64,000 nt of DNA from a virus, in the IMG/VR virus record IMGVR_UViG_3300034019_001883, positions 1-64,000 of that record; one strand, written 5' to 3'. Made by a program: the position numbers and the translations under genes. The notes beneath the pieces are model-generated. The model saw only the letters and a program-made list of their open reading frames with translations, was not told where the DNA came from and ran no database searches. Positions 2,371-55,536 of this stretch are shown piece after piece (positions within the stretch are counted from its first letter, which is position 1; every line of letters starts with the position of its first letter).

Positions 2371-2500
2371 ACGCGCCGAACTATTGAAGCTAAAGGCCAT
2401 GAGCGACGAGGAGCGGCTTAGTTACTTGCTAGCCCGCCACGCGCTTATCCCCCTTGGCAGCCCATTGCCGCCCATCCATCAAGTGCTATGCGAACCCTAA
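2351..2500 (+). CDS. Small unknown protein (49 aa)
   Basis: This short gene overlaps the end of the preceding gene by 20 bases and the start of the next by 13. The product, beginning MMNISPERAELLKLKAM, has a helical N-terminal half with an SDEERLSYLLARHAL helix. Tight packing with both neighbours supports it as a real gene. Start may be either of two adjacent ATG codons (2351 or 2354). Confidence 0.5.
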   Translation: MMNISPERAELLKLKAMSDEERLSYLLARHALIPLGSPLPPIHQVLCEP

Positions 2501-5500: not shown

Positions 5501-7485
5501 CCCACCTGCGATCGCTGGACCAATCCGAAATGGCTCAAGCCCGTAACCGCCAAGGGGGTAAGTTTGCCGTTGAGATGGATGATTGGCTGGACAAGTACCA
5601 CGAACTAAAGGGCAAGGACCGGCAGCTAGGGCTACTCACCACCGAGACAGAACGGCAGGGCGTCGATAATACTCAATGGCAACGCACCACCCTAGGCACC
5701 CAGGCGGAGCAGGACTTAAACGATGCCCTCCAAAGCGTCCTGCCGGGCTTTGAGCAAGTCAACTCAGCGGTAAACATCTACCCCGAAGTACGCTGGAATG
5801 GTGGCTTTGTCGCCCATCAGCGCGGGCTAAAGCTACTAGAACGCCAAAAGAAGATCGGCATGCACTATAGTGCCGGTTCTGGAAAGACATCAGGGATGCT
5901 CGGTGCCTTCACCCACTTGCACAGCCAGGGTAAAGTCACCCGCACCCTGGTAGCGGTGCCCTCCGGCATCCTGGGGCAGGCGGTGGGGGAATGTGCCACC
6001 TTTCTAGAACCTGGGCAGTATAGCTACTCCGCCAATATCGGATGGGACCGGGAGAAGCGCTTAGAGGCATTGCGTAATCCCGATATGCAATTGCACTTTA
6101 CCACCCGGGAATCACTCGCCAGTGACCTATTGCACCTGGTGGAAAAACACACTGGCATCGGGGCGGAGGACTTTCAAAATACCGATGCCCGCAGCGAGGA
6201 CGATCGCCGATCGCTCCTCCTAACCGCCTTGCAAAAAGAAGGCATTGACCCCAGCAGCCTTCTATTCAGCGTTGACGAAGCCCACGACCTATCCCGCCGT
6301 CAGGGTGTATCACCGTCCCGGCGATCGCTGGTCCTTGATGCCCTGGCCTACCATAGCGCCTACCATATCAACGCCACCGGCACGCCCCTGAAAAATGACG
6401 CCTCTGAAATTGCTGACTTCCTGCAAAAGGTAGGGGCACCTGAAGTAAAGGACGTTAGTGCCTTTATGGCCCGCTATGGCAAAAATACCCAAGCAAGCCG
6501 CCGTAGCCTACAGCGATTGGTGGCAAAGTACGCCTACGCGATCGCCGTCAAGCCTACCACCAAGGACGGGCAGGAGTTATCCATGCGGATGGAGCAGCCT
6601 AAGATCGCTTTATCTGACCACCAAAAGACTCAGCGGGCAGAACTACTAAAGCACTACGACACCCTACAAGCCTGGCGGGAGCAGGAACTACCCAAGGTAA
6701 TGGCGGCTAAGCGGGAGCGGGGCGATAACTCACCCCTCAATACCAAAGACCTTGCCCATGCCTGGGAGGATGAGGGCGTTAGAGCCGCGATCGCCGTCCT
6801 GTCGCCTGAGTCCTACGGCAAGCTAGACGATGCCACCAAGCAAGTTAAGGCAGGCGGGCAGTTGCTAGGCGCCTCCGCGCTTAAGTACGCCGCCCTATCG
6901 CGGCTCTACCACCAGACTGACTACGCCAACAACGGCAAGGCGCAGCACGTCGTTAAAATGGCCGCCCAAGCCAAGGCAGACGGTAAACCCATGGTGATCT
7001 TTGCCGCCTCCGCCCAGGCCGCCCAGATGTTGCGGAACCAGCTTGCCAAGGAGGGTCACCGGGTAGGCTATATCGACGGCACCCTGGGGCCAGCGGAAAA
7101 GGACAAAGAACGCCTACGGTTCTCCCCCGTCGCCGGCGAGGATGCTGAAACCGACATTCTAGTGACCACCGACGCCGCCCAGACTGGCCTTAACCTGCAA
7201 CGGGGTAAGTTACTAGTTCACTACGATATTCCCCTCACCCAAAAGGCATGGGACCAGCGCTCAGCCCGTATCTACCGCCGGGGCCAGACCGATGACGTTG
7301 ACGTGCATACCCTAGTCGCTGATGCGCCGGAGGACGCGATCGCCCTAGCCCGAATGCAGCGCAAAGGTAGCGACAGCGAACTATTCCAGGGGGCTGATGC
7401 CACCCAGGGCCATGCTGAACTATTGGACGATACCGGACTAGCCGCCGCGATCGCGGAGTTTATGCAGGAAGATGATCCGGGTTGA
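2488..7485 (+). CDS. Giant polyvalent protein with C-terminal SF2 (DEAH-type) helicase
   Basis: 1665 residues. The N-terminus (residues ~1-60) is a divergent tag-like segment with PKGVFDLE and GDRLYFVGEDCELYRG. Around 108-160 lies WITIHPN ... GTASVIAGAGGKLN, a phrase typical of phage polyvalent proteins, then a charged coiled coil. The middle ~900 residues are helical and unassigned. The helicase occupies roughly residues 1090-1640: Walker A SAGSGKTSG, DEAH in SVDEAHDLS, motif III NATGTPLKN and motif VI QRSARIYRRGQ, i.e. an SNF2-like fold. Such proteins (Iyer and colleagues' polyvalent proteins) are thought to enter the host with phage DNA. QTGSLFDLG near residue 909 is a weak clamp-motif look-alike. 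Confidence 0.8.
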   Translation: MRTLTPKSKRKPLRPKGVFDLEIQPGDRLYFVGEDCELYRGEQCLGRYGYHWEDELTKAVQRTQLALVEGEERPVKGPNVTSMKPEAKAPKAPKAPPKPEEQPQTGERWITIHPNKDNPDSYVRVKIRQHPDGTASVIAGAGGKLNQLRLTKLRSPEEWKERAAERKQKRLEKEEKRRAELSEGDRQAEDDETTQAREYHRGERHRNAKATLDAYQEAGLDHGLTPEHLAALDTPASADTDPEEAKQVEALAREAVQKAAAIQKAYEQRLVQDHDARAAAKLGDESLEGLGNPLQQDIDHTAYGTDGDTISNLTQLPNGQWLVTGGDKADATFDTWQEAAKYHLGNVNEYDGTAGDRSQPDDFYNPKLWVANPDGVDFSPQLAGQMAALALQRKEIDRSDKAAGKAIKKKMPWKREQGFDIGGVSGIDDQAAIAQLDQDAKTIEDALTHGKLLDMAGLLDPQAMAKHLQTGGMAQLGEIASDVLKVAQVDPAIIAQMGHDEAAKLIAYQIRQAVGDREYQAIAAAQAAHHGQWSTEYANQVIAENQPRLDALRDIHRRMQEIEAAKDGDYTADQLIELDTLSYQSETLQKSLQQSIGTALGQLQASAAMTLALESKPRSLRFAVKGSHGDVADVPGLLSTDDSPSIWSSYGLTAEDFSLEDGPDGQLVSIEPSGMEKLATATYNPEDRDAYEEAIAIKRGAYDEDGFTPAGFAYRPESTFTDVRAEAQQFDTTFNYQPEMDDAGVEQAIKQYLGARVANGDDPLSVRRDLFSPELYLNLGLNQDDALRVNGAVQAMDLKLFGKDAPGQAQIRNAYQELGDQAAAAQRSARATDDLQALHSQNLNTDTAKEAAHRALAAMPMARAVLKPMDQLSTQERKYLRDYAITEVMGETLEAPAKKEATPEEDVPQTGSLFDLGSYDEPGDKPANDYREPSQWDRFCRIMGGEQKAYDAIRDRLKGNFYSRFASAYSAIEGKPLLTGSQTLTHVDRLAAASLPPEERDELLAHLRSLDQSEMAQARNRQGGKFAVEMDDWLDKYHELKGKDRQLGLLTTETERQGVDNTQWQRTTLGTQAEQDLNDALQSVLPGFEQVNSAVNIYPEVRWNGGFVAHQRGLKLLERQKKIGMHYSAGSGKTSGMLGAFTHLHSQGKVTRTLVAVPSGILGQAVGECATFLEPGQYSYSANIGWDREKRLEALRNPDMQLHFTTRESLASDLLHLVEKHTGIGAEDFQNTDARSEDDRRSLLLTALQKEGIDPSSLLFSVDEAHDLSRRQGVSPSRRSLVLDALAYHSAYHINATGTPLKNDASEIADFLQKVGAPEVKDVSAFMARYGKNTQASRRSLQRLVAKYAYAIAVKPTTKDGQELSMRMEQPKIALSDHQKTQRAELLKHYDTLQAWREQELPKVMAAKRERGDNSPLNTKDLAHAWEDEGVRAAIAVLSPESYGKLDDATKQVKAGGQLLGASALKYAALSRLYHQTDYANNGKAQHVVKMAAQAKADGKPMVIFAASAQAAQMLRNQLAKEGHRVGYIDGTLGPAEKDKERLRFSPVAGEDAETDILVTTDAAQTGLNLQRGKLLVHYDIPLTQKAWDQRSARIYRRGQTDDVDVHTLVADAPEDAIALARMQRKGSDSELFQGADATQGHAELLDDTGLAAAIAEFMQEDDPG

Positions 7486-9522: not shown

Positions 9523-9594
9523 CTTTGGCATTTCTCCGTAGTAAAAACGCTATAGACGTGTTAAAAATACACTTGTATTGTTTTTTTGCTTTCT

Positions 9595-10707
9595 ATGGCC
9601 GGAATCCGCACCCTATACCCCCGTGGCAGCAAAGAGGATGGTTTAGGCGTATTCCTAGCCAAGATGGGCAGACACAAGCTTCTCACCCCTACCCAGGAGA
9701 TAGAGCTAGGGCGACAGGTGCAGGAGGGGCTATGGGCGGCGGCAACGGTCCTCGACGATCGCGATCGCCGTCAGCCACTACAAGAAGATTTTGAACGCCT
9801 CTACCGTAGCGAGCACGGTGAATTACCAACCCAGGTGGAAATTGACACCTACTTTGACGAAGCGCGGCAGCGGTTAATTGATACCTACCGCCAGGGCCAC
9901 CCGAAGGCGACAGAGGCGGAGATGCGCCGACACTTTGAACGGGTAGCCCGGCAGGGTAAGAAAGCTTGCGACCAGATGGTGATCCGTAACCTACGCCTAG
10001 TGGTGAGTGTGGCGCACAAATATTCCAAACACGGGCTAGAGCTAGGGGATTTAATCCAGGAGGGCGTCGTTGGATTAGTGCGAGGGGTGGAAAAGTTTGA
10101 CCCGGCCAAGGGTTATAAATTTTCGACCTATGCCTACTGGTGGATTCGTCAGGCGATCACCCGGGCGATTAGCAACAAAGCCAAGTCGATCCGCCTACCG
10201 ATCCATGTTGTTGACGTACTCAATAAGGTACGCCGCTATGGCCATGTTTTCCGGGCTCAGCATGGACGCTACCCAAACGATCGCGAAGTGGCCGAGCATT
10301 TCTCCTCCCGCAATGGTGTCTCCGTTGATGAATGGATGAGGCGGCTACAGCGGTTCAAGGCGATGAACATCGCGCCGACTAGCCTGGACCATGTGGTGGA
10401 CAACGGCGATCGCTCTAAAAGCACAATCCACGACCTTGTAGGGGGTATTGATGATAGCTCTATCAGTTTGTTTGGAGATCAGGTTATCAGAGAGTTGGCC
10501 GCCGCTGTGGTGGGTTTGCCAACCCGGGAGCGCCAGGTGGTGGAACTAAAGTACGGGCTAATCAGCGGTACACCCAAGTCGCTTAGTGAAGTCGCTAGGG
10601 AGATGGATGCACCCCTTGCGACGGTGCGAACGATCCACGTCAGGGCATTGCGGCGATTATCTAGGGAACGGCGGGGCTTGCGATCGCTCCTCGAAGGACT
10701 GGAGTGA
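9595..10707 (+). CDS. Sigma-70 family RNA polymerase sigma factor
   Basis: 370 residues from the ATG at 9595. Region 1.2 is present (GVFLAKMGRHKLLTPTQEIELG), then region 2 (MVIRNLRLVVSVAHKYSKHGL, DLIQEGVVGLVRGVEKFD, FSTYAYWWIRQAITRAI) and region 4 (LPTRERQVVELKYGL...SLSEVAREM...VRTIHVRAL). It resembles cyanobacterial group 2 or 3 sigma factors. A phage copy would redirect host polymerase to phage promoters or mimic a host stress sigma. Its stop overlaps a GTG at 10704 and it lies just upstream of a tagged helicase. Confidence 0.9.
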   Translation: MAGIRTLYPRGSKEDGLGVFLAKMGRHKLLTPTQEIELGRQVQEGLWAAATVLDDRDRRQPLQEDFERLYRSEHGELPTQVEIDTYFDEARQRLIDTYRQGHPKATEAEMRRHFERVARQGKKACDQMVIRNLRLVVSVAHKYSKHGLELGDLIQEGVVGLVRGVEKFDPAKGYKFSTYAYWWIRQAITRAISNKAKSIRLPIHVVDVLNKVRRYGHVFRAQHGRYPNDREVAEHFSSRNGVSVDEWMRRLQRFKAMNIAPTSLDHVVDNGDRSKSTIHDLVGGIDDSSISLFGDQVIRELAAAVVGLPTRERQVVELKYGLISGTPKSLSEVAREMDAPLATVRTIHVRALRRLSRERRGLRSLLEGLE

Positions 10708-10748
10708 ACCTGGATACAATGGAGGGTAAATTACCCCTCCCTTACCCC

Positions 10749-13700
10749 ATGGCTATTTCTACCCTGCGCCCGCTGCGCCCCCGGCGGGCTATTTTATTGC
10801 GCAAAGACGCCCAGTTAGGTTTATTTGGCGGTGAGACTGAAGTAAAGCCAACAGCGGCGGCCAAGCGTCGGGAGCGAATGCTGCAGCCCAAGGCACCACC
10901 CAAGCCACCCAAGCCCAGCACCAGGGCAACAGCGCCCAAAGAGGGTGACACTCGCATTAACCGGGCAGGCAATGAGGAGGTATTGCGGGCAGGACGGTGG
11001 CGATTGGCTAGTAACCCTAAGGTGGTTGCCAAGGATAGGGGAAGCGCCGCGATCGTCCCGGTGGTGGAGGCGGATGAGCCTATGCTCGAGGCAGACGAGG
11101 ACGCGATCGGCCCGGTTGTGGAAGAACCCATGGTGGAGTCCGAACCCCAAAACTTGGCAAACCCTGGCAGTACATTTACACTAGAGCAAGACGACAATTT
11201 AATTGAGGAAATTACCGATGGACTATCCAGGGATGATGAAGCCGCCCTCCGATCTGGAGGAGGAGTACCTGTTCGAGACGCCGACGATGGAGGAACTGTC
11301 AGCGCTAGCGATCGCGGAGCTTATCGACAAGTCGAACCCAGGCTCATCACTGCACGAGCAGAGCTCACTAAACCCGCAGATACCGGAGTCATTCCTGAGG
11401 GCATCCGAGATCATCTAAGGGATCACCAGCAACAAGGAGCCGCCGCCGCGATCGCCGCCATGGATAAACAAGGCGGCTTTTTGTTGGCCGATGGAACAGG
11501 GGCAGGAAAGACAAGGCAATTGCTAGCGATCGCGGAACGCTACCGACAGCAAGGTAAGAAAGTATTGATTATTGCCCCCTCTGAAGTCATTAAGCCAAAT
11601 TGGAAGAAAGGAACCGTTGCAGGTTCATTTAAGGATGACTCCAGCGCTATGGGCATCCCCGTGTCTTTGGCGATGCAAGCTGACAAGATGGGCGCAGGCA
11701 AGATCTGCATCAGCGCCTATAGCAGGCTCAATGCCTTTGAGGATGCGATCGATGACGACACCATTTTGCTATTTGACGAGGCCCACTCATTCAAAAATGT
11801 GACAGCCCAGCGCAGCAAGATCGGCATGAAGATGATGCGCAAAGCTAAAGCCGTGTGCTACGCAACAGCGACACCGGCGGATAAGCCTGAGCATATCGCT
11901 TACCTATTCAAGGCTGGCATTTTTAATGGACTAAAACAAGATGAAATCTTCTCCTGGCTTGGCATGAAGCAACGGGAAATCCGCGTAGGCGGAGGGAGGA
12001 CTGTCAAGAAATGGGAGATCCCACGGGGAAAATCTGCTGAAGTATACCAGCGCATGGCGGGACTATTCGACAACTTGACTGACAAAGGGCTGATGATCAA
12101 GCGCGAAATCAGCATGGAGGATGTTGATGTAGGCTTTGAAACCCTCACGTTGCCGGACAAAGCTCGGGTGATGCTAGAGGCAATCGAGGACAACTTTGAG
12201 GGCGGAGAAGGGCTAGAGCGAGCACAAATGTTAATGCACCAGCGGCGACAGCTGGAGCCTTACAAAATCCAGGCCGCCGTTGATCTAGCTAAACGCGAAC
12301 TAGCCGAAGGGCGTCAAGTTGTCCTGTTTATATCCAGGGTTAATGAGTCTGCTGTCAAAAAACGAAAATCCAGCCCAGACGATCCCGAGGTGGTCTTGGT
12401 AGATTCAGAGGGCACCGCTAAGCTGATTAGGGAAGCCCTGGAAAAAGAAGGCATCCTTGATATTACTGAACTGCATGGCGAGAGTGAAACCAAAGCAGAG
12501 GCGGCAATGGCAAGATTCCAGTCCGGCGAAGCTCGGGTAATGATTGCCACGGTGGAAAGCGGCGGTACTGGCGTCAACCTTGACGATAGAACTGGTGAGG
12601 CTCCCCGCACTTTAGTTATGGTCACGCCGCCATTCAACGCTGTTCAAAACCTGCAAGCAGCGGGTCGGGTATGGCGGATGACGACCAAAACCGCGCCCCG
12701 AATCCGATACCTATTCACCGACGCTGACGTTGACTCCTGGAACCGTCGGATAATCGCTAACAAAATGGCCGCGGTAGGTGCCGCTGTTCAGGGCGAAGTA
12801 GGCATCCTTGATCTACCCGAAGACATCTCAGATGACGCGATTGAAGCATTCATCGAGGCTAGGGACAAAAAGCAAGACTTTGACCCGATGTCACCCGCGC
12901 CCAGGCCGCCTGAACCAGTAACGCCGGTAAACACCAACAAATTACCCCCAGGATTTAGGGTGAACAAATATGGCGGCTACACGCGGGGCGGCACCTACGT
13001 TGAGGCGGGGGCAGGCTATATTCGCAATGAAAACGGTAAATGGGTCACCTACGCCAAGTCTCAGGTTGACGAAGCTGGTAATGTTACCCCTGAGCCAACA
13101 CCAGAAAAACCTGAAACCATGCCTACGGCTGAAAGGTTAGATGTGGCTAAAGGTATTGTCAGCAAGATCAACGCGATGGGAGAAGGAGAGACGCCCTACT
13201 CTCCGGAAGAAATAAAGTCAATTGAGTATGCACTCCAACTCATAGAAAGCGCTGACAACGATCGCGGGGAGGAGCGCAACATGGCGGGCTGGAGTGGGTC
13301 AACAAGGAGTGACGGGGTAAGGTTGTCAAGAAAAGTAAACGCAGGGCAACCATTGTCAGCTAGCGAACTGACAAATGCCGTCAAAATACTACAGATCCAC
13401 CGCAGACAACTAAAAGACGCAGAGATTGACCTGCCTTCCTACAAAGAGCCAACTGTTGCAGGGCTAGACCTAACGCCTACGGTATGGCAAGGCGGCGATC
13501 GCATTAGGGTGTACCTAAACGGCCCTGGGCGCAGAAGCTACGGCTACTTTGAGGTGAATGCATCTGGCAGTATTAAATATGACAGGGGCAGAGATGGAAC
13601 TCCCATTGACTCTGACTTTGCCCTAGGCGAACAAGGGCGGCAAATCCTACAGGAAATTACGCCATCAGCCCTCACCAAGTCCCTGCCCCCTGCCCCCGTC

Positions 13701-13898
13701 TTTACCCTAATGGGCGTGCCTTATATCTTCGACCATCACCGCGCCGTCCTGCGCAAGGCTGGCACCAGTTGGGAGCAGTTTGTAGCCGACCTCAGTAAGG
13801 AGGCTGACGGCGATCCATGCTGGGAGGGCTACGAGGCTGTAGGCATGAAAAAGAAACGCGGCAAGATGGTTCCTAACTGTGTTCCTGTAGGCCGCTAA
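10749..13898 (+). CDS. Tagged Strawberry-notch-like SF2 helicase
   Basis: 1049 residues from the ATG at 10749; GTG 10704 or ATG 10719 are alternatives. The N-terminus has the short tag: AILLRKD, Q-L-G-L-F (residues 22-26) and NRAGNEEVLRAGRWRLA. The helicase begins near residue 220: LADGTGAGKTRQ (Walker A), LLFDEAHSFKN (DEAH), CYATATPAD (motif III), GGTGVNL and LQAAGRVWR (motif VI), the Strawberry-notch pattern. The C-terminus repeats the first tag segment (FTLMGVPYIF...AVLRKAG, nt ~13700-13765) after SALTKSLP and ends in CWEGYEAVGMKKKRG...VPNCVP. Probably virion-delivered or clamp-associated. Confidence 0.85.
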   Translation: MAISTLRPLRPRRAILLRKDAQLGLFGGETEVKPTAAAKRRERMLQPKAPPKPPKPSTRATAPKEGDTRINRAGNEEVLRAGRWRLASNPKVVAKDRGSAAIVPVVEADEPMLEADEDAIGPVVEEPMVESEPQNLANPGSTFTLEQDDNLIEEITDGLSRDDEAALRSGGGVPVRDADDGGTVSASDRGAYRQVEPRLITARAELTKPADTGVIPEGIRDHLRDHQQQGAAAAIAAMDKQGGFLLADGTGAGKTRQLLAIAERYRQQGKKVLIIAPSEVIKPNWKKGTVAGSFKDDSSAMGIPVSLAMQADKMGAGKICISAYSRLNAFEDAIDDDTILLFDEAHSFKNVTAQRSKIGMKMMRKAKAVCYATATPADKPEHIAYLFKAGIFNGLKQDEIFSWLGMKQREIRVGGGRTVKKWEIPRGKSAEVYQRMAGLFDNLTDKGLMIKREISMEDVDVGFETLTLPDKARVMLEAIEDNFEGGEGLERAQMLMHQRRQLEPYKIQAAVDLAKRELAEGRQVVLFISRVNESAVKKRKSSPDDPEVVLVDSEGTAKLIREALEKEGILDITELHGESETKAEAAMARFQSGEARVMIATVESGGTGVNLDDRTGEAPRTLVMVTPPFNAVQNLQAAGRVWRMTTKTAPRIRYLFTDADVDSWNRRIIANKMAAVGAAVQGEVGILDLPEDISDDAIEAFIEARDKKQDFDPMSPAPRPPEPVTPVNTNKLPPGFRVNKYGGYTRGGTYVEAGAGYIRNENGKWVTYAKSQVDEAGNVTPEPTPEKPETMPTAERLDVAKGIVSKINAMGEGETPYSPEEIKSIEYALQLIESADNDRGEERNMAGWSGSTRSDGVRLSRKVNAGQPLSASELTNAVKILQIHRRQLKDAEIDLPSYKEPTVAGLDLTPTVWQGGDRIRVYLNGPGRRSYGYFEVNASGSIKYDRGRDGTPIDSDFALGEQGRQILQEITPSALTKSLPPAPVFTLMGVPYIFDHHRAVLRKAGTSWEQFVADLSKEADGDPCWEGYEAVGMKKKRGKMVPNCVPVGR

Positions 13899-14332: not shown

Positions 14333-16342
14333 ATGAAAACCTTTACCCTTGCAGGCGATCGCTACGCCGCGATCGCGTCCCCCCGTGGCATCGTCTTTCG
14401 CAAAGCGGCGGACTTTGACACCCGACTACCGATGGATGCTGAGCAGCGGGGTAGCATTGGCGCTGACCTGAATGCCTTGCTGTGTTCGCTGATGGACCTG
14501 CGCCTATCGCTACAACTAGCCCACTGGAACGTGAAAGGCATCAACTTCCAGCAATTGCATGAACTTTTTGATAAGTTGCAAGAAAGCCTATTGCCCCACA
14601 TTGACCTGGTGGCTGAGAATGTGGCTACCCTGGGCATGGTGGTGATCGGCACTGCGGACGACATCGGCGATCGCACCATCTTGATGCCCTACAGCAATGG
14701 CAGCGACCAATACGCCATCCTAGACGAACTAGCGGACCGCTACGCCTACCTAATCCGCCACATGATGGACTTGGTTGAGGAGCTATTGGCTGATGGCATC
14801 CAGGGGATTGCTGACGTGCTAATAGGCATCCACATGGACATGGAACGCAACGGCCTTTATTTTCTAGAATCCCATATCCCTAGCGCCAACCTACAGAAGG
14901 CAGCCAGGCGATCCATGCTGGAGGAAGGCGCTACCAAGGAACGCAACGGCGTTACCTACCGGCTCAACAAAAACCGTCGCTGGGAACGGAGCGATCGGGG
15001 CAGCAAGCCAGCCAGGGGTAAGCGGCCAAAGCCCCCCGGCGGTGTAGTGCCCGTCATCCCGATGGATGGCGCTAAGACTAAGGGTAAGTCAAAGCCGATG
15101 CGCTTTGATAGCCGTCCCCCGGGCGGCGGTGCCCAGGCGGTGCAGCAGGGCAAATTAAACGCCAAGGCACAACGGGCGGCGGCCAAGGTGACGCCAAAGG
15201 TGGCCCCCGCAGGCAAGCCTGCCAAGGCGAAAAAGGCTGAAGTGAAGCCCAAGGGCAAGAAGGCAACCTCGGAACCCTTGTCAGATGATGCCTTTGTCGA
15301 TCTGGCCCTGAATGCGGCCAAGGCGACCCAGGGCGGGCGGCTAGGGGACTCCAAGGTGTTTATCTCCAAGGTATGGGAAACCTTGCAGCAGCAGCACCCA
15401 GACCTAAACCTCAGCCTAGACGACTTCAAAAAACGTTTGGTGAGGGCTAACCGGCAGCGAAAGCTCGATCTAAGCCGGGCGGATATGGCCTACGCGCTAG
15501 ACGCCAATGACGTATCAACGTCTCAAATTAAGGACGACAACAGCGAGTACCATTTCATCCGCCAAGCATTTGAGCCCGAGCAAAAGCCAGCCTCGACAGG
15601 CAAGGTAAAGCCCAAGGGCAAAAAGGCAACCGTCAAACCCAAGGCGGAGAAAACCCAGCCACAGGCAAAAGCGATCGCGTCCTATGGTGAGTTCAAAAAC
15701 GAAGTTGCCAGGATCTACGACAAGCTCAACACTGAAGAAAACCTAAGCGACATGGTGCCTATCTATCGCATTCGCCGCGAGCTAGGCGATCGCGTCTCCC
15801 GTGCGCAATTCAAAGAATGGATGATGGACATCCAGGCAAGCGACAAAATACAGCTAATGGGAGGACAAGTGCCCGGTGTCACTCAAGATCAACGCGAAGA
15901 CTCTATCACAATCCCTGGCGGTGGAATGCGGTTTTACGTCAAAAAGCTAAAGGACTTTGACGGCAACGACGAGACAGATTCATCCAAAGCTCGCCGGAAA
16001 CCTAAATCATCAACGCCGTCGCAGCCTAAGCCAAAAACAACGCCTATCAAGTCCTACGACGACTTTAAGGGCGAAATAGCCAGCGTCTACGACAGGCTGA
16101 ACAAGGACTACAACCTAGGCGACTTGGTTCCTATTCACCGCATTCGCCGCGAACTAGGCAACCGTGTTTCCCGCGAGCAGTTTGACAAATGGTTGTTTGA
16201 CATCCAGGCCGACGACCATGTGCAGCTGATGGGCGGCGCCTTACCCAACGCTACTCAGGCAGACAAAGACGATGCCCTGCAAATCAGAGGAGCCCTTCGG
16301 TTCTACGTCAGAAAACTGAGAGACTTTGGCGGCAAGTCTTAA
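14333..16342 (+). CDS. Tagged Dps-type ferritin fused to repeated C-terminal modules
   Basis: 669 residues. Residues 1-25 are the strand tag (FTLAGDRY...GIVFRKA). Residues ~40-190 are a Dps domain: LAHWNVKGINFQQLHELFD with His64, His76, Asp91 and Glu95, matching the ferroxidase spacing (12, 15, 4) of bacterial Dps. Next comes the hairpin tag NGVTYRLNKNRRWER, a basic linker with PKGKKAT repeats, one domain of the type FISKVWETL...LDDFKKRLVRANR, and two tandem ~90-residue repeats (LVPIxRIRRELGxRVSRxxF...QLMGG...RFYVxKL). Dps oxidises iron with peroxide and binds DNA; in a phage it may protect or compact delivered DNA. Q-L-x-L-F is absent. Confidence 0.85.
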   Translation: MKTFTLAGDRYAAIASPRGIVFRKAADFDTRLPMDAEQRGSIGADLNALLCSLMDLRLSLQLAHWNVKGINFQQLHELFDKLQESLLPHIDLVAENVATLGMVVIGTADDIGDRTILMPYSNGSDQYAILDELADRYAYLIRHMMDLVEELLADGIQGIADVLIGIHMDMERNGLYFLESHIPSANLQKAARRSMLEEGATKERNGVTYRLNKNRRWERSDRGSKPARGKRPKPPGGVVPVIPMDGAKTKGKSKPMRFDSRPPGGGAQAVQQGKLNAKAQRAAAKVTPKVAPAGKPAKAKKAEVKPKGKKATSEPLSDDAFVDLALNAAKATQGGRLGDSKVFISKVWETLQQQHPDLNLSLDDFKKRLVRANRQRKLDLSRADMAYALDANDVSTSQIKDDNSEYHFIRQAFEPEQKPASTGKVKPKGKKATVKPKAEKTQPQAKAIASYGEFKNEVARIYDKLNTEENLSDMVPIYRIRRELGDRVSRAQFKEWMMDIQASDKIQLMGGQVPGVTQDQREDSITIPGGGMRFYVKKLKDFDGNDETDSSKARRKPKSSTPSQPKPKTTPIKSYDDFKGEIASVYDRLNKDYNLGDLVPIHRIRRELGNRVSREQFDKWLFDIQADDHVQLMGGALPNATQADKDDALQIRGALRFYVRKLRDFGGKS

Positions 16343-23097: not shown

Positions 23098-23636
23098 GGA
23101 GACTGTTATTGCTCGACCACACCGCCCTGGTGCAGCACCGGAATGGCCCCGGTGTCTACATCAACAACCGGGACGATATGACATTGGTTCCAGGCATTCT
23201 AGGCGCCCTAGAGCCCTACGTTGACAGGAACTACAACGTCGCCATCTGTAGCAACCAGGGCGGCGTCGAGAAAGGCCACCTAGCGTTCGGTGCTTGCCAA
23301 AACCTATTCGGTGAAATGTTCAAGCTGTCCAACTATTGGGTTCAGGCCATTTGGTTTTGCCCCCTAGCCCGGGGCAGCACCGGCAGTTATGCCATTCAAA
23401 TGACGATGCCCTACGAACCCAAGACCTATACCAAATGCCAAAAGTATGCCACCACCGGCTACCGGATGCCCCAGGCGGGCATGATTTTGGCCGCCATGGA
23501 CTGGTTTGGGGTAACGCCTGAGCAGACCACCATGGTGGGCTTACAGCCGGAGGCTTACTATGCCGCCGCTGATGCAGGCGTCAAAAAGTTTGTCCACAGT
23601 TCGTACTTTGTTGAAAAAGCGGGAGTATTGCAATGA
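23094..23636 (+). CDS. HAD-superfamily protein with altered active site
   Basis: 180 residues. It resembles the histidinol-phosphatase / PNKP-phosphatase branch: motif II ICSNQGGVEKG is intact. Motif I reads LLLDHTALVQ (Asp8 present, the +2 Asp replaced by Thr), and motif IV reads MVGLQPEAYYAAADAG, where the usual VGD acid is lost. It may therefore be a weakened or binding-only relative. Lying between an SSB-like protein and the clamp, a role at DNA ends is possible. It overlaps dnaN by four bases. Confidence 0.65.
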   Translation: MRRLLLLDHTALVQHRNGPGVYINNRDDMTLVPGILGALEPYVDRNYNVAICSNQGGVEKGHLAFGACQNLFGEMFKLSNYWVQAIWFCPLARGSTGSYAIQMTMPYEPKTYTKCQKYATTGYRMPQAGMILAAMDWFGVTPEQTTMVGLQPEAYYAAADAGVKKFVHSSYFVEKAGVLQ

Positions 23637-24751
23637 AATTTACAGTAGATGCGGGTGATCTGGCAGAGGCGATCGCGCTGTGCGATCGCGCTATCCCTAA
23701 GCGCCCTAGCCGCCCTATCCTGGGGCATATGCTAATGCAGCTAGACAATGGCAGTCTTATCCTAAAAGGGTTTGACGAGGCGCTAGGGATTAGCTTTTCC
23801 TTGCCAGTGGATATGGAGCAATCCGGTGATTGTTGCATATCTCCTACTTATCTAAAACCTATCCTGGAACGCCTATCCGGGCAGGTGGCCTTAGACCTGC
23901 AATACCCTGTCCTGGTGCTAACCACCCTGGGCGCCGAGTACCGCATTAACACCCTCCTGGCTGAGGACTACCCCAACTTGCCCGAGGTGGACGGCACCCC
24001 GGTAGAGTTGTCCATATCCTCAGAAGAACTACGGGCCGCGATCGCGGCTACGGTGTTCTGCGCCAGTACTGACGAAAGCAAGCAGGTACTTACCGGCGTT
24101 CACTTCTCCGTTACCCCCGGCGAAGGGGGGGAGGCAGGGGTGATGGAGTTAGCGGCCACCGATGGCCATCGGATGATCGCCTACCCGCTACCCGGTAGCG
24201 TTGTCATCCCCGATGACTATCGCCCCGTCACCCTGCCCGGGAAGAGCCTGCGGGAACTGCTAACCGTCCTGAAGGGCGAGGGTGCCGTCAAGCTGACGTT
24301 TGATGACGTGTCTGTGCGTGCCCTATGCGGCAACACCGAGCTCTATAGCCGGGTTATCGAGGGGCAATACCCTAACTACCGGCAGCTATTCCCCAAGGTG
24401 TTCTCAAAGGTGGCGACCTGCGATCGCAAGCCATTCTTAGCCGCCCTCGATCGCACCTTGGTGGTGGCCGGTGAAAACAAGGACATCGTTAAGCTGGAGT
24501 TTGACACCACTGGGCTGGTGATGAGTGCAGAGGCAAAAGAAGCGGCCAAAGCTCAGGAACATGTCGAGGGCGTAACCTGTAGCGAACCCATCACCCTAGC
24601 GGGGAACGGTAAGTACATCAAGGAGGCGCTAACCAATGCGATCGTGGGTGAAACCTTCACTATGGAAATGAATAAGCCAGAAAGCCCAGTGGTTTTTACA
24701 GATGGGTCCCCGGCGACCTATTTAATGATGCCCATTCAGATTAGGGGTTAA
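23633..24751 (+). CDS. dnaN: DNA polymerase III beta subunit (sliding clamp)
   Basis: 372 residues, the normal length for a bacterial clamp. All three domains are visible: SRPILGHMLMQL in domain 1, TDGHRMIAYPLP and VKLTFDDVSVR in domain 2, GQYPNYRQLFP near the domain 2/3 junction, and the C-terminal YLMMPIQIRG that lines the partner-binding pocket. A phage clamp would hold the polymerase and other Q-L-x-L-F proteins on phage DNA. Six proteins of this window carry such a motif. The gene overlaps its upstream neighbour and is followed closely by the DpdA-type gene. Confidence 0.95.
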   Translation: MKFTVDAGDLAEAIALCDRAIPKRPSRPILGHMLMQLDNGSLILKGFDEALGISFSLPVDMEQSGDCCISPTYLKPILERLSGQVALDLQYPVLVLTTLGAEYRINTLLAEDYPNLPEVDGTPVELSISSEELRAAIAATVFCASTDESKQVLTGVHFSVTPGEGGEAGVMELAATDGHRMIAYPLPGSVVIPDDYRPVTLPGKSLRELLTVLKGEGAVKLTFDDVSVRALCGNTELYSRVIEGQYPNYRQLFPKVFSKVATCDRKPFLAALDRTLVVAGENKDIVKLEFDTTGLVMSAEAKEAAKAQEHVEGVTCSEPITLAGNGKYIKEALTNAIVGETFTMEMNKPESPVVFTDGSPATYLMMPIQIRG

Positions 24752-26190: not shown

Positions 26191-28803
26191 ATGGTTCTTC
26201 CTCTGGAGGCTATCCTGTCCAAGTCAGCCGATATGGTTGTGGGCGGGGTAGCCTCCAATTTTTTTAGAGATCTTGACGGCGATGCCATTTGCCCGGACGC
26301 GATTCAACGCGCTATCCCTGGCTTCATGGCAACCCGTGGCCCGGACGGGCTAAAGGGTGGCCCCATTCGCCTGCACCATGGTTTTTGGGAGCGATTTCTA
26401 AAGCAGTCCATCTCTGCCCTTAATATTCCCTACGACCAGCAAGTGGGGCTACTAGCCGCGATCGCGCTCCCCCTGGGCCGGGTGACTGAGATGAGTGTCG
26501 ATAGCGATGGCACTACGCGTTGGCGGGGTGTCCTATCTGGCGCTAACCCCATCGCCCGGGTGGTGTGGAATATGCTCAAAGAGGGCATGGTTCACCTTGG
26601 CGTTAGCGTTGGTGGCAAGATCAACGGTGTACGCCCCGGCAGAGATGCGATCGGGCGGACCTGTAACCTTATTACTGACGTACGGCTCGATGAGCTCAGC
26701 ATCACTGATAACCCGGCTAATCGACTAATTGAGTCCGAGACCCCCGACAATGGCGCCTATATCACCGCGCTTGCTAAATCTGTGGGTAATACCATGCTCG
26801 CTCAGAAGCAACAGCATTACATCTACCTGAATGGCATCGCCTATACCGCTCACCCTAGCGAGGAACATGGCATTGTCCTACGCAAGGCAGGACGGCGGCG
26901 GCAGCCCTCCCCGGGCCAGCTAGGCTTGTTTGGTGGCCACAATGAAGGTGATACCAAAGTAGAAGACGGTGTTACCTATCGGCTCAATGCCAATAGCCGA
27001 TGGGAGCGGATGGATAAACCCAAGGCCAGCGGTAAGCCGTCTGGCGGGAAGAAGAAGGCGGAAAAGCCTGCGATCGTCCCGGTGGTGGAGGACGAGCCCG
27101 CCGCCCAGGACCCCGAACCCACCGTTAGCGACATGCTGGAGCAGCAGCAAGCGGAGATAGCTGAGTCGAAACCAGTTATCTCGGGCAGGCAATTTGTCGA
27201 AGAGTTTATTTCCGCCTGGAATGACACCCATGGTTCAGAGTGGAACCGCGATGCTGCGGGATACACAAAAGCCAAAATATGGGACAAAAAAGACGGGGAG
27301 ATCCGGGTTTACTTTGGCTCCGTTAAGCAGCCCCTGGTTTTCAGGAAGCAAGATAATGGCGAATACGTTGCCGCTGTAACCCCTGGCAAATATGGACTTG
27401 ATGAGCAAATTGCCCCTATCCTCGACGATCTAAATTCACGGTTTTCTACCAAGCCTGAAAACACCAAGACCGACCAAGGCTCTGCCGGAACCCAACAACG
27501 AGTATTGATGCAAGAAGACGAAGACGGTGTTGTTGCACCTGCAGGACAACACGAACGTGGCGTCCATATCGTGCGGGAATGGTACGAGTCAGAACCATCT
27601 CCCAAGCCCACCGTTGGCGACATGCTGGAGCAGCAGCAAGCCGCGATCGCGGATGAGCCCATGCCTGAGGGTGAGGCGATGGAGGGGGCGGAGGATGACT
27701 GGGAAAGTAAGCTGCAAGAGCTTCAGTCTATTGGCAATCAAGCCAAATTAGATGGACCCGAGGGTGTGAAGGATGACGCGACAGAGGCGCCTGGGGTTTC
27801 TTACAATCCTGACTTAGTGCAGCAACGAATCAACCAAGGTTATTTTGAAGGCCGGGCTTTCTACTCAAAAGCCGTACAAGCCATGAAGGCAGCATTGTCA
27901 GCAGGTAGATCTGTCAAACTGCATTTTGATGACCAAAGTAGCTATGGCGCCAATCTGGTAGCTGAAATCGACGGAGTTCGGCACCCTATCACTCGCTCGA
28001 AACTAAAGCCAAAAGATATTGCGTTTCTCCTGACGGTCAACAGTCATTCGGCAATGGACGTTTCGGAAGGCGCCTTGGAACAATTAGGACTAGGCAGCAA
28101 AACTGCCCCAACCGGACGCAAACGATCTTCCGCCTTTACCAAATCTCTCACCCCCTCATTCCCCATGACTATCGACAACTTCCTCCGCAAAGCCCTGGGT
28201 AATCCTGGGCGTGAGTTTGGTTCTGGCTCATGGCGGGATACGGGCATCCCGGCGATGGGCCGTAAAGTTGACGCCAAAAGCCCGCAGCCCAAGGGCGGCA
28301 AAAAGGTACAAATGGATGAGTCCGCTAGTGCCCATGCCGGTAAGGGTATCGGTGGCAAACAACCCAAAGCCCATCGCCCCTACTCCTCCGGCGGTATGCC
28401 CCCCACTGATGTATTCGGTATCACCATCACCCAACTAACCCGCAACCTAGCCAAGGCTTGTTATATGGACAAGGACGCCTGGGGTAGCCCGGAGACGGTT
28501 TCCTTCTTGACCGACAGCGCCAGGGCGATCGCGGGCATGACCGACACCCCGACCGACCCAATGGTGAACTTTGTCCGGTTCTTGCAATACTGCACCCGTT
28601 TCGCCCAAGAATTGCCGTTTATGAACGACTACCAGGCGGCGGGGACGGTGAAGGCGATGAATGCCGACCTAACCAAAGCGCTGGACGAATTCGTAGAGAA
28701 GATGCCTGAGGAGCTAAAGGGAAAACCTTTGCGCCCTGCCGGTTCACCCGGCGTTGTGGGCATCGACGTTCAGTTTCCCCAACAGTACGTTATTTACTCC
28801 TAG
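26191..28803 (+). CDS. XkdF-type prohead protease fused to tag and further modules
   Basis: 870 residues. Residues 1-190 are the XkdF-like serine protease: GVASNFFRDLDGDAICPDAI, KGGPIRLHHG, DGTTRWRG, GVSVGGKINGVRPGRD and LDELSITDNPANR. After TALAKSVGN comes the full tag (YIYLNGIAY...GIVLRKAG, Q-L-G-L-F at 243-247, NGVTYRLN-like DGVTYRLNANSRWER). Then follow two PTVxDMLEQQQA repeats flanking an unassigned domain, a second unassigned domain, AFTKSLTP, and a C-terminal helical domain starting TIDNFLRKALGNPG. The protease normally cleaves scaffold and capsid; here it seems to be a polyprotein that carries cargo-like modules. Confidence 0.8.
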   Translation: MVLPLEAILSKSADMVVGGVASNFFRDLDGDAICPDAIQRAIPGFMATRGPDGLKGGPIRLHHGFWERFLKQSISALNIPYDQQVGLLAAIALPLGRVTEMSVDSDGTTRWRGVLSGANPIARVVWNMLKEGMVHLGVSVGGKINGVRPGRDAIGRTCNLITDVRLDELSITDNPANRLIESETPDNGAYITALAKSVGNTMLAQKQQHYIYLNGIAYTAHPSEEHGIVLRKAGRRRQPSPGQLGLFGGHNEGDTKVEDGVTYRLNANSRWERMDKPKASGKPSGGKKKAEKPAIVPVVEDEPAAQDPEPTVSDMLEQQQAEIAESKPVISGRQFVEEFISAWNDTHGSEWNRDAAGYTKAKIWDKKDGEIRVYFGSVKQPLVFRKQDNGEYVAAVTPGKYGLDEQIAPILDDLNSRFSTKPENTKTDQGSAGTQQRVLMQEDEDGVVAPAGQHERGVHIVREWYESEPSPKPTVGDMLEQQQAAIADEPMPEGEAMEGAEDDWESKLQELQSIGNQAKLDGPEGVKDDATEAPGVSYNPDLVQQRINQGYFEGRAFYSKAVQAMKAALSAGRSVKLHFDDQSSYGANLVAEIDGVRHPITRSKLKPKDIAFLLTVNSHSAMDVSEGALEQLGLGSKTAPTGRKRSSAFTKSLTPSFPMTIDNFLRKALGNPGREFGSGSWRDTGIPAMGRKVDAKSPQPKGGKKVQMDESASAHAGKGIGGKQPKAHRPYSSGGMPPTDVFGITITQLTRNLAKACYMDKDAWGSPETVSFLTDSARAIAGMTDTPTDPMVNFVRFLQYCTRFAQELPFMNDYQAAGTVKAMNADLTKALDEFVEKMPEELKGKPLRPAGSPGVVGIDVQFPQQYVIYS
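26882..27013 (+). repeat. Tag-encoding paralogous segment, copy 2 (with 18774-18905)
   Basis: Gapless, near-identical copy of 18774-18905, differing mostly at third codon positions, inside an otherwise unrelated gene. Confidence 0.85.
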
Positions 28804-28818
28804 CTAGGTAACTAGAAA

Positions 28819-29643
28819 ATGGACCCACAAACCCTACAAGCCTTGATGGGAGTATTCCAACAAGGCTTACAAATCCTGCAATCTGCCCAGGCGGGTGCCG
28901 GTGCGCCCCCTACCGCTGGTGCCCCCGCCGCCAATGGTGCCCCCGCCGCCAATGGTGCGCCACCCATGTCCCCTGGTACGCCTCCTGCCATGGACCCCGA
29001 CGACGAGGACATGATGGAAGAGGATGACGAGGACATGGATGCCCCTGAAGCCATGGACGCTGATGACGATGAGGACATGGACGACAGCGGCATGGGTGGC
29101 TCCTCCCTGCACGATCGCGTCAGTCAGCTAGAAAACCACACTGGCCTGAAGAAAAGCGCCCGGCGTGGTTCTTTGCTTGATGCCGTCGCTGCCCTCGAAG
29201 AAACTATCCTTGGCACCGAATACGAAGGCCCCCTAGTAGATCGCGTCAACCAATTAGAAAAAGCGGCAGGTATCAGCCAACGCGCCCAGGACCAAGCACC
29301 GGACGAAATCCCGCTAGAAAACTTGATCAAGAGCGCGATCGAATCCGGCATCCAACAAGCGATCGCCGCCCGTGACCCGGAGGACAACGAAGACCCGGAC
29401 GCTATCCCCGACCTACGCCAGATGCGCAAGGCAGCCAAGGGCCAGCGTTATGGCAGTCGTAAGGGCGTCGCTGGCGCGATCGTCAGTGATGAGGACCTGG
29501 TAAAGAGTGCTGCTAGCCTTGGCTGGGACGGCGATGACCTGGACCGCCCCGTGTCCTTCGGTGATGCGCTGTTGCTGCAATACCATTCACAACAAGCGGG
29601 TGAGCCACTGCCATTTTCAGCCGATGAGGCTGACGACGATTAA
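28819..29643 (+). CDS. Putative capsid scaffold protein
   Basis: 274 residues between protease and capsid, the classic scaffold position. The N-terminus is an Ala/Pro/Gly-rich stretch, then a strongly acidic Asp/Glu/Met run (residues ~55-92), a coiled-coil middle (LHDRVSQLENHTGL, LVDRVNQLEKAAGI) and a basic patch KGQRYGSRKG. Acidic, helical, low-complexity proteins are typical scaffolds. L-x-K-S occurs in ENLIKSAIE and EDLVKSAAS, candidate sites for the phage protease. Confidence 0.65.
   Translation: MDPQTLQALMGVFQQGLQILQSAQAGAGAPPTAGAPAANGAPAANGAPPMSPGTPPAMDPDDEDMMEEDDEDMDAPEAMDADDDEDMDDSGMGGSSLHDRVSQLENHTGLKKSARRGSLLDAVAALEETILGTEYEGPLVDRVNQLEKAAGISQRAQDQAPDEIPLENLIKSAIESGIQQAIAARDPEDNEDPDAIPDLRQMRKAAKGQRYGSRKGVAGAIVSDEDLVKSAASLGWDGDDLDRPVSFGDALLLQYHSQQAGEPLPFSADEADDD
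28918..28953 (+). repeat. 18-bp tandem repeat, two copies
   Basis: GGTGCCCCCGCCGCCAAT twice in tandem, encoding GAPAAN twice in the scaffold. Confidence 0.9.
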
Positions 29644-29673: not shown

Positions 29674-30663
29674 ATGACGAACGCAGCCCTGACCCGTCGG
29701 GCGCTACTAAAATCGCTAGGCATTAGCGATGGTGGTGGTGCCGAGGTTACCCTCCAAACCACGATCGCTTCTGAAGTGATCCCCTTGATCCGGCAACAAT
29801 GCTTCATGCGGCAGATCGCTGATCGCAGCAAGAGCCTGATCAATATGACCAAGCCCAAGATCCGCATCCCCAAGCTGGTACGCGCCCAAGGTGCCTACAG
29901 CGTCAAAGCGGGCCAACCGGCGCCTGAGTTCAAGGCACGGCTCGACAGCATCGACTTGGTGCCCGAAAAGCTGATGACCTGGCTACCCGTGGACCAGGAA
30001 GTATTCGAGGACAGCACCATTCGAGACATCGAAGGGATGCTGAAAGAGGAAATGGCTCGGGAATTTGCCCAAGCGGAAGAGCTTGCCTTCCTGCTAGGGG
30101 ATACCACCGTGGACCATGGCCCCGGCGACCCTAAGAATGTTTTTAATGGGTTATTCGCCCAGGCCGCCGCGACGCCCTACACCTACGACGCCTCCCTTGA
30201 CACCAGCGCTAACGCTGTTGAGGCCGGTACTGTCACCAGCAACCTGGTACGCGCCATGCGCTACCTGGGCATCTACGGACGCAATAAGCGCGACGTAGTG
30301 GTGATGGTGGGCCTAGCCTGGGAGGAAGCCCTCCTGCGTAACCGTAGCTTCCAAACCATGAGCAGCTACGCCTATGGCTCTGGTGCTGGTATCTTCACCG
30401 GTGAGATCGGACGCCTAGCCGGTGCCCCGGTCATTGCTACCACCTTCCTGGATGCGCAACCCGGTGAAACCTACGGAAAAGCCCTGGTAATGAACCAATC
30501 AGCCTTTGCCATTGGCGACTGGCAGCGATTTAACATCAGGGTATATCAGGAAATCTTAAGTGCCACGGACCAAACGGCAATACGTGCGAGGGAGCGGCTC
30601 GCATTTTCTGTAAGGTATCCTGAAGCTATCGTTGAGATTCTCAACGTTCCCGCTCAGCCGTAG
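29674..30663 (+). CDS. Major capsid protein (HK97 fold)
   Basis: 329 residues. The E-loop and spine region (IRIPKLVRAQGAYSVKAGQPAPEF), LVPEKLMTWLPVDQEVFEDS, the spine helix GMLKEEMAREFAQAEELAFLLGD, a P-domain with ALLRNRSFQTM, and the C-terminal IRARERLAFSVRYPEAIVEI are all typical of HK97-type capsid proteins. The short N-terminus holds RALLKSLGIS, which matches the L-x-K-S motif of its neighbours and may be trimmed. Its last 10 bases overlap the end of an HNH gene on the other strand. Confidence 0.92.
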   Translation: MTNAALTRRALLKSLGISDGGGAEVTLQTTIASEVIPLIRQQCFMRQIADRSKSLINMTKPKIRIPKLVRAQGAYSVKAGQPAPEFKARLDSIDLVPEKLMTWLPVDQEVFEDSTIRDIEGMLKEEMAREFAQAEELAFLLGDTTVDHGPGDPKNVFNGLFAQAAATPYTYDASLDTSANAVEAGTVTSNLVRAMRYLGIYGRNKRDVVVMVGLAWEEALLRNRSFQTMSSYAYGSGAGIFTGEIGRLAGAPVIATTFLDAQPGETYGKALVMNQSAFAIGDWQRFNIRVYQEILSATDQTAIRARERLAFSVRYPEAIVEILNVPAQP

Positions 30664-47638: not shown

Positions 47639-47840
47639 ATGAAAATTTATACCCTTGCCGGGGTGCCCTACATCCCAGTGGTGACCGCTGGGGGCATTGT
47701 CCTAAGGAAAGCGGGACGACGGCACCAAGTGTCGCCAGGGCAGTTAGAGTTATTTGACACCCAACACCAGCAGGGCGAAACCCGCACCAACCAAGCGGGC
47801 CACCAGGAGGTGCTGCAAGAGGGGCGGTGGCACCTCGCTA
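47639..47840 (+). repeat. Tag-encoding paralogous segment (with 55339-55536)
   Basis: The first ~200 bases match 55339-55536 closely, with one short indel; the rest of the two genes is unrelated apart from a short shared module. A recent duplication or gene conversion is likely. Confidence 0.8.
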
Positions 47841-48442
47841 ACAGGACTGGACAGCCACAGCAGCAGCCAACAAAGAATCCTGCCACAATGCGATGGCACG
47901 TTACAGCGGCAGGAGATTTAATCCGGGAGAAAGGCTTTCAAGTTGGGCTTGGCGGTGGAGCGGGCGGTCCTCTGTCCGGCAAAGGCATTTCAGTTTGGAA
48001 AGACAAACAAAAGGCAGATCAATTTCACAAGCAAATGCAAGAACTTGAAGACATAAGGTCTTCGGGTGATCCATTAAAAGCGGCAGAAGCTGCCACCAAC
48101 CAGCCAATTAGCTTAACTGACGGTATGGCAGGGCTGTGGGCTGGAAAGTTAGGACGCGCACTAGACTCCCGAGAACGTGCAATCATTCATGCTCAGTCGC
48201 TACTCAGCCCATACATACCGCCTGACTCGTTCTTTGGAGATGGGCCAAGGAGAAAATTTGAAAATCTCGCCGTCCATGTTTCCTCTGAGTCGCAAGAAAA
48301 TAGCGATGGATGGGTTAATGATGACGAAGAATTGCATAGTCCTGAAAAGGTAAAGCTGGCACAACCGCAGCAGCCAACGCTCACCATAGAAGGACTCCAT
48401 GCTCTACGCCAACAAGTTGCCCAGGAGTTAGCTAGTGGATAA
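47639..48442 (+). CDS. Tagged protein with possible ADP-ribosyltransferase-like domain
   Basis: 267 residues. Residues 1-26 (YTLAGVPY...GIVLRKAG), Q-L-E-L-F at 35-39 and NQAGHQEVLQEGRWHLA are nearly the same as in the gene at 55339. The body starts MRWHVTAAGDLIREKGFQVG, then LGGGAGGPLSGKGISVWKD, an order that recalls ART folds (His-x-Thr strand, then a Gly-rich turn), but no catalytic Glu could be fixed, so this is tentative. The end (LTIEGLHALRQQVAQE) matches a segment directly after the tag in the 55339 product. Confidence 0.55.
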   Translation: MKIYTLAGVPYIPVVTAGGIVLRKAGRRHQVSPGQLELFDTQHQQGETRTNQAGHQEVLQEGRWHLANRTGQPQQQPTKNPATMRWHVTAAGDLIREKGFQVGLGGGAGGPLSGKGISVWKDKQKADQFHKQMQELEDIRSSGDPLKAAEAATNQPISLTDGMAGLWAGKLGRALDSRERAIIHAQSLLSPYIPPDSFFGDGPRRKFENLAVHVSSESQENSDGWVNDDEELHSPEKVKLAQPQQPTLTIEGLHALRQQVAQELASG

Positions 48443-55338: not shown

Positions 55339-55536
55339 ATGAAAATCTATACCCTTGCCGGGGTGCCCTATGTCCCGGTGGTGACCACTAGCGGCATTGT
55401 CTTGAGGAAGGCGGGCAAGCGATCGCCCGCCCCAGGACAACTAGGATTATTTGACGCTCAACACCAGCAGGGTGAGACCCGCACTAACCAAGCGGGCCAT
55501 CAGGAGGTATTGCAAGGCGGACGGTGGCACCTAGCC
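55339..55536 (+). repeat. Tag-encoding paralogous segment (with 47639-47840)
   Basis: See 47639; the two copies keep nearly the same codons with mainly third-position changes. Confidence 0.8.

Follow-up and report, generated by a model that had tools for sequence, protein, structure and literature searches.

Bacterial Dps proteins, for example those of E. coli (1f30/6b0d), A. tumefaciens (1o9r) and Planktothrix/Oscillatoriales, are single-domain proteins of about 147-187 aa; Dps domains are obligate oligomers, and the Dps dodecamer measures about 9 nm. In several Dps proteins DNA binding is mediated by basic tails. Dps domains are also encoded, without fusion, in the genomes of Lactobacillus phages, Gratiaviridae and Aeromonas LAh phages, and these stand-alone genes of Lactobacillus phages and Gratiaviridae have been read as cellular stress tolerance genes (PMC6669764, PMC8008677). 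Another set of described systems concerns proteins enclosed in the phage head: the internal proteins IPI-III and Alt of T4 carry short N-terminal capsid-targeting sequences (CTS) which are removed by the prohead protease, and the head and ejection (E) proteins of SPN3US share a single cleavage motif (PMC7411985). The papers searched, which cover the literature incompletely, do not report Dps as capsid cargo of the T4/SPN3US type, nor do they discuss a Dps-protease fusion, a tagged Dps fusion or a virion Dps.

The DNA analyzed here, called the window throughout, corresponds to the first 64,000 bases (1-64000) of a virus record of 76,049 bp. It carries an intact ORF with an ATG start in which a Dps ferritin domain is only one part of a much longer chain:

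14333..16342, + strand: tagged Dps fusion ORF (669 aa, 74.6 kDa, pI 9.6)
14333..14407, + strand: N-terminal tag, aa 1-25, MKTFTLAGDRYAAIASPRGIVFRKA, which may be a capsid-targeting propeptide; its last four residues, FRKA (aa 22-25), form a putative protease site
14411..14890, + strand: Dps ferritin domain, aa 27-186, with ligands H64, H76, D80, D91 and E95
14891..14902, + strand: second putative prohead-protease site from the motif analysis, LQKA (aa 187-190), directly 3' of the Dps domain
14924..14989, + strand: module EGATKERNGVTYRLNKNRRWER, aa 198-219, which comes after the tag in other tagged proteins
14990..15286, + strand: basic Lys/Pro/Ala-rich linker, aa 220-318
15287..15568, + strand: domain A, aa 319-412, not related to B or C
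15665..15967, + strand: domain B, aa 445-545, winged-helix-like repeat
16049..16339, + strand: domain C, aa 573-669, winged-helix-like repeat

The window protein shares with bacterial Dps the fold, the BC helix and the ferroxidase ligands, at about 28-38% identity, whereas the tag, the second putative cleavage site and the basic tail of 480 aa behind the Dps domain are its own additions. The region following Dps has a net charge of +10 (aa 187-232) and +15 (aa 233-318), or +25 over aa 187-318. By sequence comparison and charge the tag and the basic linker which the first-pass annotation had placed on a Dps are both real, and its view of the fusion as an unusual form of Dps is supported. It had also spoken of three DNA-binding-looking repeats, of which two stand, B and C being 58% identical to each other; domain A shows no relation to either of them, so the reading as three repeat domains is ruled out. 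On balance we favor the interpretation that this ORF encodes a head-targeted cargo ferritin, trimmed or excised by the prohead protease, for which packaging, cleavage, assembly into a 12-mer and catalysis are what we infer.

With scores well outside the range of chance, the Dps domain matches Pfam Ferritin PF00210 (2.9e-12, 47.2 bits against a cut-off of 24.5), phrog_3636 (3.5e-17) and, over aa 34-182, E. coli Dps in PDB (4e-18), while its score of 100.6 bits for the NCBIfam equivalog of E. coli-type Dps, NF006975, lies under the cut-off of 114; by these profiles the domain is a member of the Dps family which is not filed as an E. coli-type equivalog. The spacing of H64, H76, D91 and E95 (12/15/4) is that of E. 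coli Dps, as had been claimed from the sequence at first reading, and D80 is also in place. Equivalents of these four residues are invariant in 86/86 aligned phage Dps domains, an alignment in which H64 was fixed by the search pattern while H76, D91 and E95 lay outside of it. An AlphaFold2 monomer model of aa 24-193 (pLDDT 90.8, pTM 0.86) has helices at 13-43, 49-76, 103-130 and 134-157 and a BC helix at 85-91, that is, a four-helix bundle with, as is usual for Dps, a short BC helix, and its best Foldseek matches are Dps crystal structures from E. coli and Agrobacterium (TM 0.79-0.83). Ligands are conserved on both sides of the dimer interface, which is compatible with a putative dodecameric shell. 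Between the window and its relatives L004 and L005 dN/dS of the Dps domain is 0.03-0.05, the lowest among the full domains of the ORF, and the domain is therefore under strong constraint (purifying selection). The Dps core is strongly acidic (net charge -17, pI 4.4). Similarity to cellular Dps begins at about aa 23-28 and stops at about aa 183-193; the best identity is about 38% and cyanobacterial homologues are equally far, so that no close host origin of the window Dps was found.

The tag MKTFTLAGDRYAAIASPRGIVFRKA is not confined to the Dps fusion. Homologous sequences form the N-termini of ORFs 55339 (3.7e-6) and 47639 (3.2e-5), and internal copies are present in ORFs 26191 and 10704:

13701..13760, + strand: copy flanked by LTKS and LRKA, close to the C-terminal end of the neighboring helicase (ORF 10704-13898)
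26821-26889: internal tag copy in the putative prohead protease ORF 26191
47639..47713, + strand: N-terminal copy in ORF 47639-48442
55339..55413, + strand: N-terminal copy in ORF 55339-56463

By these homologies the tag is a cassette common to the Dps fusion and at least four other phage proteins, the putative prohead protease among them, and such a cassette common to head-linked proteins is what appears to be new here. In the five window proteins it is recognized with profile E-values of 7e-18 to 2e-14 by a profile built from those same copies, the single-sequence matches given above (3.7e-6 and 3.2e-5) being independent of the profile. Looser versions are found in ORFs 18626 and 1645, and four more virus records, those of the relatives G001, G002, G015 and G016, also contain the cassette. 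A propeptide shared by several head-associated proteins is a trait of CTS-type cargo; here it is found in five window proteins and is kept in relatives. In the firm copies the last residues are [LF]xKA, with G or A as the next residue, and a second such site brackets most of the internal ones upstream. Module EGATKERNGVTYRLNKNRRWER, which in the Dps fusion lies behind the ferritin domain, has matches in ORFs 26191 (6.6e-8), 18626 (4.8e-7) and 1645 (7.9e-7). Because the region after LQKA leads into the module that elsewhere follows the tag, Dps was probably inserted between the tag and the module of an older tagged protein. One of the records with the cassette, G016, has no Dps in its 92.5 kb; Dps is therefore not essential to the system, which fits Dps being an optional cargo.

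Several tagged proteins have another short element in common, QL[GE]LF, which resembles a beta-clamp-binding motif. It is situated shortly after the tag in ORFs 26191, 47639 and 55339; in 18626 it lies at a greater distance downstream, and helicase 10704 has it close to its N-terminus. The phage has a DnaN-like clamp gene of its own (23633-24751; phrog_947, 1.9e-65), and tagged cargo may bind the clamp. There are also two large PHROG 62 helicases in the window (2488-7485 and 10704-13898), one of them tagged near its C-terminus, which are possibly delivered helicases of the anti-restriction type.

The head genes of the window, among which the motif at the end of the tag is enriched, are arranged as follows:

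26191..28803, + strand: putative prohead protease, matching phrog_9427 (head maturation protease) at 5e-4; it contains seven [LIVMF]xK[AS] sites and one of the internal copies of the tag
28819..29643, + strand: acidic scaffold-like protein between the protease and the major capsid protein, with five [LM]xK[AS] sites
29674..30663, + strand: major capsid protein (PF05065; Pfam 8.3e-30), with one LLKS site at aa 11-14

The assignment of the major capsid protein is firm, and this protein has no match among GenBank phages. A modest profile match together with the position points to ORF 26191 as the putative protease. ORF 28819-29643 is without a family match, and its position suggests the role of a scaffold. 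In the protease there are seven [LIVMF]xK[AS] sites against 2.1 expected from shuffles (p=0.004) and in the scaffold-like protein five [LM]xK[AS] sites against 0.35 (p=2e-4), together 12 motif sites against about 2.5; for protease, scaffold-like protein and major capsid protein the count of [LIVMF]xK[AS] is 13 against 3.0 (p=2e-4). These counts come from the proteins of one genome and their p-values are optimistic, because the motif was picked after the sequences had been read. Enrichment is absent from the 34 other, untagged proteins (14 [LIVMF]xK[AS] sites, 17.0 expected). The pattern [LF]xK[AS] thus looks like a prohead-protease site. The Dps fusion itself has two motif sites where 2.3 are expected, which is not above chance; the count was dropped as evidence on its own, and cleavage of the fusion is consequently argued from site position and tag homology. 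The two sites, FRKA (aa 22-25) and LQKA (aa 187-190), bracket the Dps domain and match the limits of its similarity to cellular Dps, and LQKA is kept in both L004 and L005. With the T4 proteins IPI-III and Alt and the E proteins of SPN3US the window shares a short N-terminal propeptide, a motif spread across head proteins and protease, and diverse cargo, but the T4/SPN3US motif ends in Glu while that of the window is [LF]xK[AS], and in the window packaging and cleavage are predictions. A tail sheath gene (36857-39271 of the window), an integrase (L027, 7533-8909) and a large terminase (L027, 9222-11090) are further observed, and the phage is by these genes contractile-tailed and probably temperate. 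It also encodes a sigma-70 factor with regions 1.2, 2 and 4 (9586-10707 of the window).

In the favored interpretation the 25-aa tag would carry the protein into the prohead, like the CTS of the T4 internal proteins and Alt, and virion packaging is the leading idea because the tag is likely a capsid-targeting propeptide. The prohead protease would then cut at [LF]xK[AS]. Cleavage behind FRKA would take off the tag. Further cleavage behind LQKA would separate the basic, DNA-binding-like tail from an acidic, near-native Dps of about 18.4 kDa; without this second step the tail would tether Dps to the packaged DNA. Either outcome would leave a ferroxidase-competent Dps enclosed with the genome, where it could use peroxide or oxygen to oxidize Fe(II) and store the iron, with less Fenton damage in the particle and possibly at entry. 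As the excised core is acidic (pI 4.4), protection would be by iron chemistry and not by DNA binding. For the same reason, a core of net charge -17, compaction of DNA by the Dps core itself is unlikely and would need the basic tail to be kept attached. A folded Dps dodecamer is too wide for a tail tube, so an intact shell is harder to imagine being delivered to the host than working within the particle. Any delivery would require unfolding, and subunits could conceivably pass in the unfolded state.

What the tail does depends on its domains and their relatives. Domain A has no match in GenBank phages and is missing from the relative L004. Domains B and C are homologous to the two C-terminal domains of ORF078R of the Planktothrix phage PaV-LD, and also to the C-terminal part of proteins of about 240 aa from Planktothrix and related cyanobacteria; because of these homologues a cyanobacterial host is suggested, and the window virus is a probable cyanobacterial virus. 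An AF2 model of domain C, for which two PaV-LD rows were left out of the alignment, has a pLDDT of 91 and a winged-helix-like order of elements. Many winged helices were among its Foldseek matches in PDB, none of them significant. We therefore call B and C winged-helix-like, on topology and these non-significant matches; a firm winged-helix fold was rejected, since the topology fits but a significant PDB fold match is lacking.

ORF078R of PaV-LD resembles the window protein in its B/C-homologous C-terminal domains, its basic linker, its position among head genes and a tag-like cleavage motif on the N-terminal side, but it has no Dps domain and its motif is RxD where that of the window is LxKA. 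The PaV-LD head maturation protease has 15 RxD against 4.2 expected, a motif here too picked after reading, and RxD is found at tag-like positions in ORF061R, 065R, 078R and 079R, which makes it a candidate cleavage motif in PaV-LD (L016, 37921-68595). PaV-LD was set aside as support for LxKA itself: its protease, its major capsid protein and the ORF between them lack LxKA, and the protease has RxD. PaV-LD exemplifies the logic independently, with a motif of its own.

Absence of similar fusions from related phages had been named at first reading as an outcome that would refute its interpretation. Such fusions do exist: L004 and L005 both have the tagged one, and a different head-linked Dps fusion is present in other phages; the same tagged Dps fusion is absent among isolated phages (GenBank phage set). 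Between relatives the modules of the tail are swapped while the Dps domain is nearly unchanged: the linker of L005 is about 200 residues longer, and in L006/L007 domains B-C are joined to another N-terminal part. This exchange bears on an alternative which we consider unlikely, namely that the fusion stays uncut and is an organizer of packaged DNA, a Dps core with twelve basic winged-helix arms that condenses the phage DNA or binds the DNA of the host into which it is ejected, with iron chemistry secondary. The basic tail (net +25, aa 187-318), the two winged-helix-like domains with their kin in a cyanobacterial protein family and the DNA binding by basic tails in several Dps proteins all agree with it. 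However, Dps and the tail are separated by an [LF]xKA site which both relatives keep, the tail modules are exchanged while Dps stays nearly constant, every ferroxidase ligand is retained, and the winged-helix fold matches are not significant.

The cargo ferritin interpretation is further connected with Dps genes of other phages. A profile search of IMG/VR was followed for the best 80 of 137 phage Dps loci, with 88 Dps ORFs examined, a redundant set that includes duplicates and close relatives. In 60 of the 88 a caudovirus S78 prohead protease domain follows downstream of Dps in the same frame, with Pfam S78 and Ferritin both well over cut-off in the fusion examples tested, and several more ORFs leave the contig end before the point of the protease; both the search pattern and the separate counting of related contigs influence the share of head fusions among phage Dps. 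The major capsid protein gene starts 28-323 nt downstream in 52 of the 60 Dps-S78 ORFs. The stand-alone Dps genes of two loci (L009, L015) are surrounded by genes for head maturation, ADP-ribosyltransferase-like, scaffold and capsid proteins, and the Dps gene of L008 adjoins the portal. UniProt records named 'Prohead protease' match the window Dps model by fold, and records similar to the Dps-S78 fusions are named either 'Prohead protease' or 'DNA-binding protein Dps'.

These fusions (for example L069, L054, L059 and L010) are like the window protein in that Dps is tied to head maturation and has the H/H/D/E ligands, but in them Dps is inside the protease chain, there is no tag and the Dps is of another lineage. 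The window ORF is without a PF04586 domain, its putative protease being the separate gene 26191. In a tree whose long branches make the details unsure, the window Dps groups with bacterial and cyanobacterial Dps (94/98), on the opposite side from the protease-fused Dps, which form a separate phage group (97/99). With these separate positions, Dps seems to have entered head-linked proteins on two independent occasions. Some Dps-S78 chains (L069, 3441-5627; L054, 4313-6520; L010, 248-2581) have extra domains between or before the two (PHROG 2859, TUDOR-like, HAD phosphatase-like), which gives the protease chain the look of cargo domains strung in a row. In L015 (3140-8797) head-cluster proteins, including ADP-ribosyltransferase-like and kinase-like ones and others, have a common N-terminal KxNPHHDARGRFASGG-like tag, perhaps another family of head-targeting tags; the stand-alone Dps of L015 was not found to share it with its neighbors.

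Because the tag is common to head-linked proteins and separate Dps-protease fusions exist elsewhere, Dps is probably packaged in the virions and could there protect the viral DNA against iron and peroxide. Another alternative, that an unpackaged Dps acts in the cytoplasm late in infection and eases oxidative stress of the host cell, with tag and linker for another use such as binding of phage proteins, corresponds to how the stand-alone Dps of Lactobacillus phages and Gratiaviridae have been read (PMC6669764, PMC8008677); but the tag is common to the prohead protease, and phage Dps are repeatedly fused to or beside head maturation genes, which leaves this alternative quite improbable. That Dps is a structural module only, an oligomerizer for the prohead core or the tail domains without iron chemistry, is very improbable: although Dps domains are obligate oligomers and other phages have Dps in one chain with the prohead protease, structure alone would not require the four main ligands which are invariant in 86/86 phage Dps domains, three of them (H76, D91, E95) outside the search pattern. 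For the packaged ferritin we can go one step further, tentatively and with somewhat more doubt than conviction, and propose that Dps was recruited independently in two or more unrelated groups of tailed phages, as a virion ferritin that is packaged and released by the prohead protease; a detoxifying enzyme for iron and peroxide would then travel in their capsids together with the genome.

The role ascribed to phage Dps genes until now is to help infected cells withstand stress. If Dps is packed in heads, virions would carry their own DNA-protecting chemistry, outside the host or on entering it, and such protection would be a plausible need in sunlit, iron-containing water. The tag, the cleavage motif and the cut positions are testable predictions of this finding, and the tag, if confirmed, predicts the remaining head cargo of the phage from sequence. 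Dozens of environmental phage contigs with Dps inside 'prohead protease' ORFs are in this way linked to one possible function. A virion-borne antioxidant defence would, if true, be a class that we did not find described in the papers searched.
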